Assembly (NCBI GenBank): GCA_000467715.1
Contig: AJFK01000462.1
Span: 156,790 to 220,789 of the forward strand
DNA: 64,000 bases
Direction: 5' to 3'
DNA from: Hysterium pulicare CBS 123377
Taxonomy: Eukaryota > Ascomycota > Dothideomycetes > Hysteriales > Hysteriaceae
Shown one piece after another: positions 18,509 to 35,114 of the stretch. How positions within the stretch are numbered: position 1 is the stretch's first letter; each line of letters opens with the position of its first letter. Position numbers and translations under genes: made by a program. The notes under the pieces were generated by a model. That model saw only the letters and a program-made list of their open reading frames with translations. It had not been told where the DNA came from and ran no database searches.

Positions 18509-19147
18509 ATGCTCGGTCTCGGAAATATGCAGCCACGGCAAATAGCCACGCAAGTCCTCAATTTCGCTCTAGTTCTTTCCACGGCCTTCATGCTATGGAA
18601 AGGTCTCTCAGTCGCCACGGATTCACCATCACCGATCGTCGTCGTGCTCTCTGGGTCCATGGAGCCGGCCTTCCAGCGTGGAGACTTACTATTTCTATGG
18701 AATCGAGGGCAGGATACGCAGGTTGGGGAGATTGTGGTGTATAACGTCAAGGGGAAGGATATTCCGATTGTGCATAGGGTTGTGAGGAGGTATGGAGGAG
18801 GGTAAGCGCACTTTTTCCATCTGTGGAGGACGCACGCCATCCCCATAGGAGAGATGCCTCAAGAAATTTGTACTGCTCTACTCCTTGAATAGATGCTAAT
18901 TTAATGTGCGTTGAATAGCAAAACCCCCTTGCGCCTTCTGACCAAAGGTGACAACAACGCCGCCGACGACACAGAGCTCTACGCCCAAGGCCAAAGCTTC
19001 CTCAACCGCAAAGAAGACGTCATCGGCAGCGTGGTTGGCTATGTTCCTTTCGTGGGCTACGTGACGATACTACTGAGTGAGTATCCCTGGCTAAAACAGG
19101 CCATGCTGGGTATAATGGGCTTAATGGTGGTGCTGCAGCGGGAATGA
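18509..19147 (+). CDS. SEC11: Signal peptidase complex catalytic subunit Sec11
   Basis: Two exons, 18509-18801 and 18919-19147, with a 117-nt intron, give 173 aa, close to the family norm. Sec11 is the ER serine protease that removes signal peptides from secretory proteins. An N-terminal membrane anchor (about 14-33) precedes the catalytic motif [12 protein letters not shown] with Ser50. The other catalytic residues expected for the eukaryotic S26 family are His89 (IPIVHR) and Asp109 (LTKGDNN). The conserved GYVPFVGY motif and a C-terminal hydrophobic segment ([12 protein letters not shown]) follow. The split glycine codon at the intron keeps the conserved [14 protein letters not shown] sequence intact. 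Confidence 0.95.
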
Positions 19148-19489: not shown

Positions 19490-19644
19490 TGCGGACAGAG
19501 AGGTTCGAACTAAAGCTTGATTAGTTGTTGGAGTCAAGAAAAGAAGTGGGTGAACCAACCTCCCGACCCCTGCCTTTTCAGTATTCTTCAAATAGTATAA
19601 TTTGTACTGGGAAGGCAGTATCCTAACCACTGGACCATGCCCGC
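19490..19644 (-). tRNA. tRNA-Gly (anticodon CCC) with two insertions
   Basis: Read on the minus strand, all cloverleaf parts are present. The acceptor stem GCGGGCA (19644-19638) pairs with TGTCCGC (19497-19491), with one G-U. The D stem is GTCC/GGAT. The anticodon stem is CTGCC (19618-19614) with GGCAG (19574-19570), and the loop is TT-CCC-A. The variable loop is GGGTC. The T stem GGGAG (19564-19560) pairs with CTCTC (19502-19498). The T loop TTCGAAC is at 19509-19503, and 19490 is an A at the discriminator position. A 32-nt intron (19607-19576) follows base 37. It can form the expected helix with the anticodon loop (CAGTA/TACTG). A second 50-nt insertion (19559-19510) separates the T stem from the T loop. 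A run of six T (19480-19475) fits a Pol III terminator. Confidence 0.75.
19510..19559 (-). other. 50-nt GT-AG insertion in the T arm of tRNA-Gly(CCC)
   Basis: On the minus strand the insertion begins GTTGGT, ends CTTTAG, and carries ACTAATC about 10-16 nt before the AG. These are the marks of a short fungal spliceosomal intron. It falls exactly between tRNA bases 53 and 54. A one-frame alternative with a duplicated AG at both ends is equally consistent. Its last G, joined to TTCGAACC, also completes a B-box-like GTTCGAACC in the genomic DNA. Confidence 0.6.
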
Positions 19645-31270: not shown

Positions 31271-32917
31271 ATGATGGATTTATTAGTGAGACATGTTGGT
31301 GCTCCTGTTAATGTGAGCGTCTCTTGTGTAAGTTCACAGTTTTCAACGTCGACAATCTGGCAATTCTCCAATTTTCTCTCGTTTATAATCTCTCTTCCCA
31401 GTGCCCTCAACTCTCAGACCTCCTAGGTCCCAAAGTTCTCTACCCAAATTCAACCGCCTACAACACAACGCTATCCTCCTACTGGTCCCGACAAGAAGAC
31501 ACTCTGAATCCATTCTGTATTATTGTCCCGGGTGCCACGCAACATGTCTCCGCCGCAGTATCAATTCTCTCCAACAACTCCAACTGTCACTTTGCCATCA
31601 AAGGCCAGACGCATGCTCCAGCTGCGGGCTTTGCGAATATCGGTTCCGGCGTCACGATTGATATGGCTAACATGAACTCCGTTACCCTCAGTGAAGATGG
31701 CAAAATCGCAAGAGTAGGAGCCGGAGCAAAGTGGTTGGATGTATACACCCATCTCGACCCAATGAACCTAACTGTCGCCGGAGGCAGGAATGGCCTCGTG
31801 GGTGTTGGGGGTCTTACGTTAGGCGGAGGGATAAGTTACTTCGGACCTAGAGTCGGGTGGACTTGTGATACGGTCTCAAATTTCGAAGTATTTCTCTCCT
31901 TCCCTACTATCGCACCCCCCAGATCCAAGGGTCTGACTCACAGATTTCGGTAGGTCGTTCTTGCCGGAGGTGAAATTGTCAACGCCAATGCAACGAGCAA
32001 CGCCGACCTCTTCCGCGCTCTGAAAGGTGGTGCTAACAATTTCGGTATCGTGACGCGAATTGACTTTCGTGCTATACCACAAGGCCCCATCGTCGGCGGG
32101 AGTATAGCACACAACATCACTTACGTAGATGCGGTGTTCAAGGCTTTTGCTGATATTGCAGGAGCGAAGGACTATGACCCTTATGCATCGCTAGTCACGG
32201 GTTTGATCTATAGCTCCTCGAGTAAAGCGTGGAGTTTAGGTACAACGGCCATCTATACGAAAGAGGATCTGAAGCCAGAAGTCTATGACGAGCTTCGAAG
32301 TATTCCCACGGTTAAGGATACTCTGAATGTGACGAGACTAGGTGTTTTGGCCAACGAAACTGCCACGGCGCAGACGTATGTCCTTCTCACCTCAACCTCT
32401 TCACAGTTCTTACTTAAGTAACTGATGAAATAGAAATTGGGCTTTCTACACAGCAACCTTCAGCGTCTCTTCAGAACTCCTCAGCAAGCTCTTCCAAGCA
32501 TTCAACGCCACAATCTCCACAACCTCTATCCCAGGCGGCATCAGCTGGAGTATCGCTTTCGAACCGCTCCCGACCAAGTTCACGAAGCATAGCAGCGCCG
32601 CTGGTGGTAACTCTCTCGGCGTTAGCCCCGAAGATGGCAATCTGGTAGTGCTGCTTTTAACACCTATTTGGCCCTCTACGGCTGATAGTCAACTGGTCCG
32701 GCAGACTGCGGGGAAGATGATCGAGGATGCGGAGAGGATAGCGGGAGAGATGGGTCTGTTGAATAACTTCCAGTATCTGAATTATGCGGATCCGAGTCAG
32801 GATCCTATTGCGAGTTACGGGAAGGAGAATGTAGAGGCTTTGAGGAAGGTGAGTAGGAGGGTTGATCCGGGGGGTGTATTTCAGAAACAAGTTCCTGGAG
32901 GGTTTAAGCTCTGGTAA
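31271..32917 (+). CDS. FAD-linked oxidase, berberine-bridge-like
   Basis: Four exons, 31271-31327, 31402-31887, 31954-32375 and 32434-32917, give 482 aa. The family oxidises alcohols or oligosaccharides using covalent FAD, usually outside the cell. The FAD_binding_4 part carries AIKGQTHAPAAGFANIGSGV (the His is a likely flavin attachment site) and GLVGVGGLTLGGGISYFG. The cysteine used for double attachment in some relatives is not evident there. A BBE-type C-terminus with NYADPSQDP and VDPGGVFQKQVPGGFKLW closes the protein. Nine or more N-glycosylation sequons suggest secretion. The best 19-codon first exon does not look like a signal peptide, so the true start may be lost or elsewhere. It converges with the pectinesterase (113 bp). 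Confidence 0.8.
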
Positions 32918-33030: not shown

Positions 33031-34191
33031 TCACGCCTCCCGATCAATCCACCCCGTATTCCCCTCCTTCCCACTAAAGGGAAACTGAAACACCTTGTCC
33101 AGCGTACTATACGGCTCATACTGCCCCTCCGTCATCAAAATCGTCACATTCCCCTGCACCCTCCCCGTCCGATTAAACCCCGGCCCAAAGTCCCTAAACT
33201 CCGCCATCGTCGTATTAGAATTGACTCGCGGATCCGTGCTCGACCAATCAATATACCCACTCGGCCTAATACTGTCATCCAAGTCGCAGCTCGCAAAGAT
33301 ACTTCTATGCAGCGCGTTCCACGGTCTGCCCAGCGCACACTTCCCCTGGATGCTGAGGCTCGCATTCGCTTTTTGCACGCGCGAGTCGTGGATGTAGGCG
33401 CCGTATTTGTTGGCGAAGGTCGTGTTGGTGCCTTTCCACGCCGTGATGCCGCCGCCACAGCCGCGCAGCAGCAGGCGCGAGGACTGGATCCAGAGCGTGC
33501 CGAAGCCGTAGAGGAAGTCGGTTTGGCCCGCTACGTCGCAGGCTTTGAAGTACGAGTTCCCCAGCTTGCCGATGTAGATTGTGTCTTGGTAGGAGGCGAG
33601 ACTGCAGGCGTAGAAGCCGGTGTTGGCGTACGAGGTTGAGAGCGCTAGACTGGGGCCCGCGGAGTAGGGGAGATAGGCATTTGTGATGTTGAGATTGTAG
33701 GCGCGGAAGTCGGTGTTGCCGAAGGGCGTGTTGGGCGGTACTGTGTTCCCTGTTGGTCCTGAGCCTGTTAGGCTGGAGTTCAGGGTCGGGGCGATGGTGA
33801 GTGTGCTTGTGAAGGCATTATCTAGCGTTCCGGTGGTGTTGGTTCCCGTTGCTTGGTGCCATAGTACTTCGACTGTGTTGTATGATAGCTCGGTTGGGGA
33901 GCTGGTCACGCCGAGGAGGGTTAGGGGACCGGGACGGGTGATGTTTAGTTGTTCCGTGTAGGTGCCTGGTTGGATGAGGATCGTCTGAGAAGAGTTGTCG
34001 TGTGGAAGGGAGAGAATTGCAGACTGAATTTTCGTAAAGTTCGATGAGGGGCCAACAAGGAGGGTGTTTGGTGGACAGCCGTATAACGGATCGTCTGTCG
34101 GATATTGACAGACGCGGCGATTGGGGAGGTTCAACGAGAGGACGGACGAGGTGAAGAAGAAGAGGAAGGCGCCAATTGGCAGGACTGCCAT
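33031..34191 (-). CDS. Pectin methylesterase (CE8), secreted
   Basis: A single exon encodes 386 aa. The enzyme removes methyl esters from homogalacturonan in plant cell walls, leaving sites for polygalacturonases and pectate lyases. A clear signal peptide (1-20, hydrophobic core IGAFLFFFTSSVLSL) starts the protein. The CE8 active-site set is complete. YQDTIYI provides Gln202 and Asp203, GQTDFLYG provides Gln223 and nucleophile Asp225, and LGRPW provides Arg289 and Trp291. The right-handed beta-helix start PGTYTEQLNI is present. Many N-X-S/T sites fit secretion. The coding region is rich in C and G at third positions compared with neighbours. Assignment is secure. Confidence 0.94.
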   Translation of the reverse strand: MAVLPIGAFLFFFTSSVLSLNLPNRRVCQYPTDDPLYGCPPNTLLVGPSSNFTKIQSAILSLPHDNSSQTILIQPGTYTEQLNITRPGPLTLLGVTSSPTELSYNTVEVLWHQATGTNTTGTLDNAFTSTLTIAPTLNSSLTGSGPTGNTVPPNTPFGNTDFRAYNLNITNAYLPYSAGPSLALSTSYANTGFYACSLASYQDTIYIGKLGNSYFKACDVAGQTDFLYGFGTLWIQSSRLLLRGCGGGITAWKGTNTTFANKYGAYIHDSRVQKANASLSIQGKCALGRPWNALHRSIFASCDLDDSIRPSGYIDWSSTDPRVNSNTTMAEFRDFGPGFNRTGRVQGNVTILMTEGQYEPYSTLDKVFQFPFSGKEGNTGWIDREA

Positions 34192-35114
34192 CTCGAAAAT
34201 GAAGAAGTCGAAGGTGCGGAGAGGACGACATCGAGGAAGCTCGGGCTATTTAATATGCAGGATATTGAGATGCATGCCGCGAACCCGGAAAATTAATGGG
34301 AACCTACGGATCTACACGTGGAAAATATGCAAGGAAGCAATCACGGGCGAAGCGGAAACGTGACGTGAAATGCATCTCCAAAGCTGTTTCCCTTGCTGTG
34401 GAAATTGTCATGACGGTGCAGGTGTGAAGAAGTGGTTTAGCCGATTGCGGGGATGGCAGTAGTACCTGACGATCTGCGATGGGGAAGAATCCACCAATCA
34501 AACGTCAGTTGCGTATACAACGCTCCGTAAGAGACGGTGCGTGTGGGCGGAGGAGACGATGGGCATCGAAGGCGGGTGGCTTCACGAGGTGCGCGCACTG
34601 TGGGATGCAAAGAAGATGAGAGACGAGAGAAAGATCTATTCCGAGCTAATAACATAGCCACATGTTTCTCATCATAACGAGAGTATTAACTGATCCTTGA
34701 TGCGGTGACTATCGGCCATCAGCACGCATGCCCGGTGGGTCGGCCCACATGGCCGGTATGCATGCAGAGCCGTGAACGCGATCTTGTCCGGCCCGATAGC
34801 ACAAGATCTCTTCCACAATAGCAGACCCGAAACCTTAAAACCCAACCCTGATAGAACAAGGTCGCCCATGTTTTCATATCCTTTTGCCAAGTCTTTTGAA
34901 AACGCCGTTGGCTGTTGAGCCCGATTTGGTGACTCCCCTAGTGCGCTCGTAATGCGCTCGTAGTGGGTATCTCCATGGAAAACAAGAAAAATAAAACAGT
35001 AGAAGAATGGAATGCAATAAACATGGTGCAGAGCAATGTTGTCGGCCGTGAATGATGAGTGTAGAGTATGGAGTATGTTCCCCGCTCGCTGGAAACCGAA
35101 GCTTTCGTGCTTCT
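34192..35114. other. Intergenic, no supported gene
   Basis: The region upstream of the pectinesterase and downstream of the Cys-rich gene has open frames. One (34672-35118, minus) overlaps the end of the Cys-rich gene in another frame. None shows family resemblance. Confidence 0.4.

Follow-up and report, generated by a model that had tools for sequence, protein, structure and literature searches.

The tRNA gene described here, on the minus strand of a 64,000-nucleotide stretch of DNA (the window), is split by two insertions, one at the usual site of tRNA introns and one in the T arm. The question raised by this locus is what the T-arm insertion is. A preliminary description of the sequence had offered three readings, namely a spliceosomal-type intron in a Pol III gene, a non-canonical tRNA intron, or a recent insertion that killed the copy. 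As argued below, the sequence favors a spliceosomal-type element among these three.

Anatomy and identity of the tRNA gene

The locus can be divided as follows.

19490-19644, minus strand: 155-nt tRNA gene, most likely Gly(CCC), split by two insertions
19608-19644, minus strand: exon 1, tRNA nt 1-37 (acceptor 5' strand, D arm, 5' half of the anticodon arm, anticodon CCC)
19576-19607, minus strand: intron 1, 32 nt, at 37/38, presumably cut by the tRNA splicing endonuclease (TSEN)
19560-19575, minus strand: exon 2, tRNA nt 38-53 (3' half of the anticodon arm, variable loop, T stem 5' strand)
19510-19559, minus strand: intron 2, 50 nt, GT...AG, at 53/54
19490-19509, minus strand: exon 3, tRNA nt 54-73 (T loop TTCGAAC, 3' strands of T stem and acceptor, discriminator A)

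The complete minus-strand cloverleaf claimed in the preliminary description is borne out. Removal of both insertions leaves 37+16+20 = 73 nt in which each of the 21 stem pairs is of a standard type, with G-U at 5-68, 10-25, and 50-64, while 100,000 shuffles of the 73-mer gave a mean of 8.7 pairs and a maximum of 18. The T loop TTCGAAC is intact and no decay is seen in the tRNA body. The shorter insertion, 32 nt (19607-19576), lies as claimed at 37/38, the canonical position of tRNA introns (PMC4090602).

The anticodon call depends on which cut of intron 1 is chosen, as there are two possible cuts that each leave a 7-nt anticodon loop. Cutting at 37/38 (19607-19576) gives TTCCCAA and hence Gly(CCC), and cutting at 32/33 gives TTGAAAA and Phe(GAA). 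Because 37/38 is the canonical position, and because the tRNA body is Gly-like, we favor Gly(CCC) over Phe(GAA) and conclude that the locus is most likely a tRNA-Gly(CCC) gene. The same ambiguity was met by ARAGORN. Among four versions of the locus, it called Gly(CCC) only for the one lacking both insertions, and the version from which just intron 2 had been taken out was called Phe(GAA), with an intron at 32/33, when introns were permitted.

In the raw window ARAGORN found no tRNA, whether introns were allowed or not, and an Rfam scan of the whole window at the gathering score returned no RNA match. The Rfam tRNA model RF00005, applied to the unedited locus, gave an end-to-end match of 28.8 bits (E = 3.7e-4 in a 351-base search), which is 0.2 bits below its gathering cut-off of 29 bits. 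In the alignment, 35 residues of the anticodon loop and 57 of the T loop are passed over, where the model has 3 and 7 positions, so that RF00005 recovers from unedited DNA the same two-insertion architecture that had been proposed from inspection. With lowered thresholds, ARAGORN reported on the unedited DNA a Gly(UCC) tRNA with one 83-nt intron plus two undetermined tRNAs, and after removal of intron 2 a Pyl-like tRNA; all were poorly paired and were taken as noise.

Placement and splice signals of intron 2

The position of the T-arm insertion was determined by a placement scan, where intron 1 was taken out and every 50-nt deletion starting after nt 43 and leaving 73 nt was scored for 7 acceptor pairs, 5 T-stem pairs and the loop TTCGA. 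Only 51/52, 52/53, and 53/54, which are equivalent, reach 17/17, and the next best placement scores 16. The three cannot be told apart because there is an AG at both ends of the insertion. The earlier claim of a 50-nt insertion (19559-19510) exactly between nt 53 and 54 therefore fits the structure, but so do the other two placements, and it is only at 53/54 that intron 2 reads GT...AG. A scan of ARAGORN calls over deletions of 40-60 nt, also with intron 1 removed, had been dropped as unspecific, since 270 of 2583 deletions gave a tRNA call (the first 60 of the 270 calls were all Gly(CCC)). ARAGORN accepts large variable loops, and the strict 73-nt count was used instead.

Read at 53/54, intron 2 is GTTGGTTCACCCACTTCTTTTCTTGACTCCAACAACTAATCAAGCTTTAG. 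The GT start, the AG end and the ACTAATC upstream of it are all present where they had been described, and we assign the splice signals as follows, the donor being compared with the U1 consensus.

19554-19559, minus strand: 5' splice site GAG/GTTGGT, 6 Watson-Crick and 1 G-U match to U1
19520-19525, minus strand: branch site ACTAAT (fits RCTRAY), its A at 19521 being the presumed branch point, 11 nt from the 3' end of the intron
19510-19512, minus strand: 3' splice site TAG

For the branch motif RCTRAY a range of 6-36 nt from the 3' end has been given (PMC5832005), and the branch site of intron 2 has this form and lies within this range. A search for an introner-like element found no similar copy of intron 2 in the 64 kb window, the longest match being 11 nt.

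Intron 2 compared with introns of the window and with chance

As a reference set we used 15 introns in ten genes of the window, delimited by continuity of the reading frame and ranked with a generic fungal consensus, a ranking that makes the set lean toward consensus introns. For FAD2, KYN, and ATG11 the second-ranked candidate was taken, and for OSBP a single candidate was replaced by two introns, in each case from the reading frame and the protein sequence expected; a junction in NST had no candidate and was left out of the set. Three of the ten genes have Pfam support (RSN1_TM; PGM_PMM_I with AMG1_II, the latter just under the cut-off; ATG11), and the names SEC11, NHP6, kynureninase, phosphoglucomutase, OSBP, and FAD oxidase are our presumptions from the sequences.

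In most respects intron 2 falls inside the range of these introns. Its 50 nt compare with 50-117 nt (two of the 15 are also 50 nt), its branch distance of 11 nt with 8-19 nt (10 of the 15 fit RCTRAY), and its pyrimidine fraction ahead of the branch region, 0.75, with 0.44-0.78. Its TAG acceptor is the one used by 11 introns of the set, the remainder being three CAG and one AAG, and its 6 Watson-Crick and 1 G-U pairs to U1 compare with 5-7 Watson-Crick pairs. The donor is less typical, as all 15 reference donors are GTR and none has the T at +3 that is found in GTTGGT of intron 2. The total intron score of 13.1 bits lies at the low edge of the 13.0-22.3 bits obtained for the 15 introns in leave-one-out scoring, and it is the second lowest when all are ranked together.

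These signals bear on the possibility that the gene was killed by a random insertion of 50 nt whose GT...AG ends and branch-like motif arose by chance. We placed every 50-mer of the window, from both strands, at the site of intron 2, allowing all equivalent placements, which is a fair control because the insertion is defined by the tRNA structure and not by GT-AG. Among 127,900 50-mers there were 975 that read GT...AG, 52 that also had RCTRAY in range, and 34 that reached the score of intron 2, a count that includes real introns and intron 2 itself. Mononucleotide shuffles reached the score in 32 of 200,000 cases, and GT...AG 50-mers of the window did so in 22 of 472. The chance figures should be read with the qualification that the locus is one pick from a scan of many windows. 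The insertion is more intron-like than expected by chance, and its length too is one used by introns of the window. A 2-bp target duplication left by a random insertion could account for the AG at both ends, but given the rarity of equally intron-like 50-mers we consider such an insertion improbable.

Candidate Pol III signals and genomic setting

Three candidate elements of a Pol III gene were assigned to the locus, the two boxes being compared with their consensus sequences.

19627-19637, minus strand: A box TGGTCCAGTGG, 0 mismatches to the loose consensus TRGYNNANNNG
19501-19511, minus strand: B box AGTTCGAACCT, 3 mismatches to the full consensus
19480-19475, minus strand: T6 run, probable Pol III terminator, starting 10 nt past the tRNA 3' end

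Since G53 is supplied by the last base of intron 2, nothing interrupts the B-box core GTTCGAACC in the DNA. Three mismatches to the full B box are no better than background, as such a match is found at 197 sites on this strand and, besides this B box, three times within the 381 bases examined. The core by itself is found 4 times on this strand and 5 times on the opposite one. The spacing between the A and B boxes is 115 bp, which is long. The T6 run that had been noted 10 nt past the 3' end was found at 19480-19475; T6 runs start at 12 places on that strand of the 64 kb, giving a chance of about 0.2% for one within 12 nt, and within the transcript no T run exceeds T4.

Gene content and the style of the introns suggest that the DNA comes from a filamentous ascomycete. 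The locus is intergenic and is flanked by SEC11 on the plus strand (about 18509-19147) and NHP6 on the minus strand (about 20917-20428). The SEC11-like gene, presumably for a signal peptidase subunit, has one 117-nt intron, and the NHP6-like gene, presumably for an HMG-box protein, has three. Elsewhere in the window, a frame that we take to be pectin methylesterase-like (33031-34245, minus strand) adjoins a gene that we take to be FAD-linked oxidase-like (31312-32917, plus strand).

Scans of viral and genome contig collections with the tRNA pattern gave 0 matches each, and a scan of viral contigs for NHP6 gave 2 pattern matches, none of which was confirmed. For SEC11, the genome contigs yielded 15 loci on archaeal or bacterial contigs with 26-36% identity; none was fungal and they were not used.

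Predicted folds and competing readings

The predicted fold of the precursor draws the branch site into a pairing with the 3' splice site region and leaves none of the three donor G bases unpaired. The former pairing can be seen in 19526-19508 (AACTAA...TTAGTT) as a 6-bp hairpin in which the branch site faces the 3' splice site together with the two bases that begin exon 3. In addition, the first bases of intron 2, GTT (19559-19557), are complementary to AAC of the T loop (19505-19503), so that the T stem could reach 8 bp in the precursor; this extension is read from the sequence and is absent from the predicted fold. For the spliced 73-mer, the proper T stem has a probability of 0.03 in the predicted fold, and the cloverleaf lies 2.8 kcal/mol above the predicted optimum.

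The strongest rival to a functional gene is a dead copy bearing a real intron. Here an mRNA-type intron would have been inserted, the Pol III transcript would stay unspliced, and the locus would be a recent pseudogene while other tRNA-Gly genes serve the cell. Such a history would agree with the atypical +3 position of the donor and its partial pairing in the predicted fold. It would also agree with what is described for short insertions in the D and T arms of eukaryotic tRNA genes. Mostly these affect a single gene where many synonymous ones exist, and they are presumed to indicate pseudogenes (PMC4090602). Against it speak the undecayed tRNA body with 21/21 pairs and an intact T loop, the presence of an A box, a B-box core, and a T6 run, and the fact that donor, branch site, and acceptor of intron 2 are all still recognizable. 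On balance we regard the dead copy as rather unlikely.

As the remaining alternative, intron 2 could be another tRNA intron, of a non-canonical kind, that TSEN and tRNA ligase remove. GT-AG ends and a branch site are not expected of such an intron, and eukaryotic TSEN measures from the folded tRNA body, which this insertion disrupts. We also looked for a bulge-helix-bulge and found none above chance for intron 2, as 13,818 of 18,272 random inserts score as well, though the test is powerless, since the canonical intron 1 fails too (10,711 of 18,278), and it was dropped as evidence. The position is in favor of this reading to the extent that 53/54 is known in archaea, T-arm introns in nucleomorphs, and non-canonical introns in a red alga (PMC4090602). 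Taken together, we find an endonuclease-type intron very improbable. The three readings of the preliminary description thus come apart in part only, with the splice signals favoring the spliceosomal type and no positive sign of the endonuclease type having appeared in a test without power.

A possible route to the mature tRNA

In the explanation that we prefer, a tRNA gene transcribed by Pol III has, beside an ordinary intron at 37/38, a GT-AG intron of the mRNA type that the spliceosome removes, and on the sequence evidence we rate the prospects of its being right as even. The 32-nt intron 1 would be an ordinary tRNA intron handled by TSEN and tRNA ligase. The 50-nt intron 2 would be an mRNA-type intron gained by the tRNA gene and removed by the spliceosome like the intron in the Pol III-made U6 of fission yeast. 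TFIIIC could still bind, with the boxes 115 bp apart, since an intron ending in G keeps the B-box core contiguous.

In the precursor, intron 2 would hold the T stem and T loop apart, so that the tRNA elbow could not form. The expected order would be splicing by the spliceosome, then folding of the tRNA, and then TSEN cleavage at 37/38. That two splicing machines are needed in sequence, the spliceosome on the T-arm intron and only then TSEN and ligase at 37/38, we propose somewhat more tentatively than the explanation itself. The anatomy, the promoter-like and terminator-like signals, and an intron-likeness beyond chance are seen in the sequence itself; transcription of the locus, its splicing, the order of the steps, and the function of a mature tRNA are what we infer.

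In weighing the different readings we relied chiefly on the tRNA body and on the signals of the intron. A number of points count against the preferred explanation, namely the T at +3 of the donor, the low-edge intron score, the pairing of the splice signals in the precursor, the background-level B box, the long A-B spacing, the T-stem probability of 0.03, the 2.8 kcal/mol by which the cloverleaf misses the predicted optimum, and the view that arm insertions in eukaryotic tRNA genes indicate pseudogenes (PMC4090602).

Significance

We know of mRNA-type introns in Pol III genes and of none in a tRNA gene. If intron 2 is truly spliced out, the mRNA splicing machinery helps to make a tRNA, which would mean that pre-tRNAs made by Pol III can be substrates of the spliceosome and that the supply of this tRNA depends on mRNA splicing. 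The tRNA would also join the short list of structured RNAs with spliceosomal introns, and the locus would offer a natural case for studying the gain of an intron within an internal promoter. It would further imply that tRNA finders can miss such genes, as ARAGORN and Rfam at the gathering score both missed this one.

Comparison with known systems

Eukaryotic tRNA genes have been described as limited to one intron (PMC8450103), and a 2026 review classes tRNA splicing as spliceosome-independent (PMC13149111). In the open-licence literature, none of the matches listed names a spliceosomal intron in a nuclear tRNA gene, and the account of non-canonical introns in PMC4090602 names neither a nuclear fungal case nor GT-AG signals.

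Several systems share the site or the kind of insertion. Archaea carry additional tRNA introns, with 53/54 among the positions used, that are excised by an endonuclease via their structure (PMC4090602). A cryptophyte nucleomorph has T-arm introns of a few nt, for which the review gives the mode of excision as unknown, and the non-canonical tRNA introns of red algae are ascribed to the endonuclease (PMC4090602). Eukaryotic tRNA pseudogenes with insertions in their arms likewise have a T-arm insertion in one gene copy; the present locus differs from them by its undecayed body and by an insertion with ordered splice signals.

Bearing on the preferred explanation are the introns of small structured RNAs, where U3 and U6 are described as the only ones known to be often interrupted by introns (PMC5832005). 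The fungal U3 snoRNA introns are normal spliceosomal introns in a small structured RNA and are found in the vast majority of the Pezizomycotina analyzed (PMC5832005). Here the RNA and the insertion site are different, and the donor is less typical than the U3 donor consensus GTRWGT (PMC5832005).

The other precedent is given by the introns of fungal U6 snRNA genes. They are GT-AG-type introns in a structured RNA made by Pol III, removed by the spliceosome in S. pombe (PMC8917221), as is predicted for intron 2 of this locus, and the precedent is apt because polymerase and kingdom are the same. While splicing is established for U6 in S. pombe, that of intron 2 is deduced from its signals. The host here is moreover a tRNA that also carries a canonical tRNA intron, and intron 2 lies between T stem and T loop, right beside the B box.
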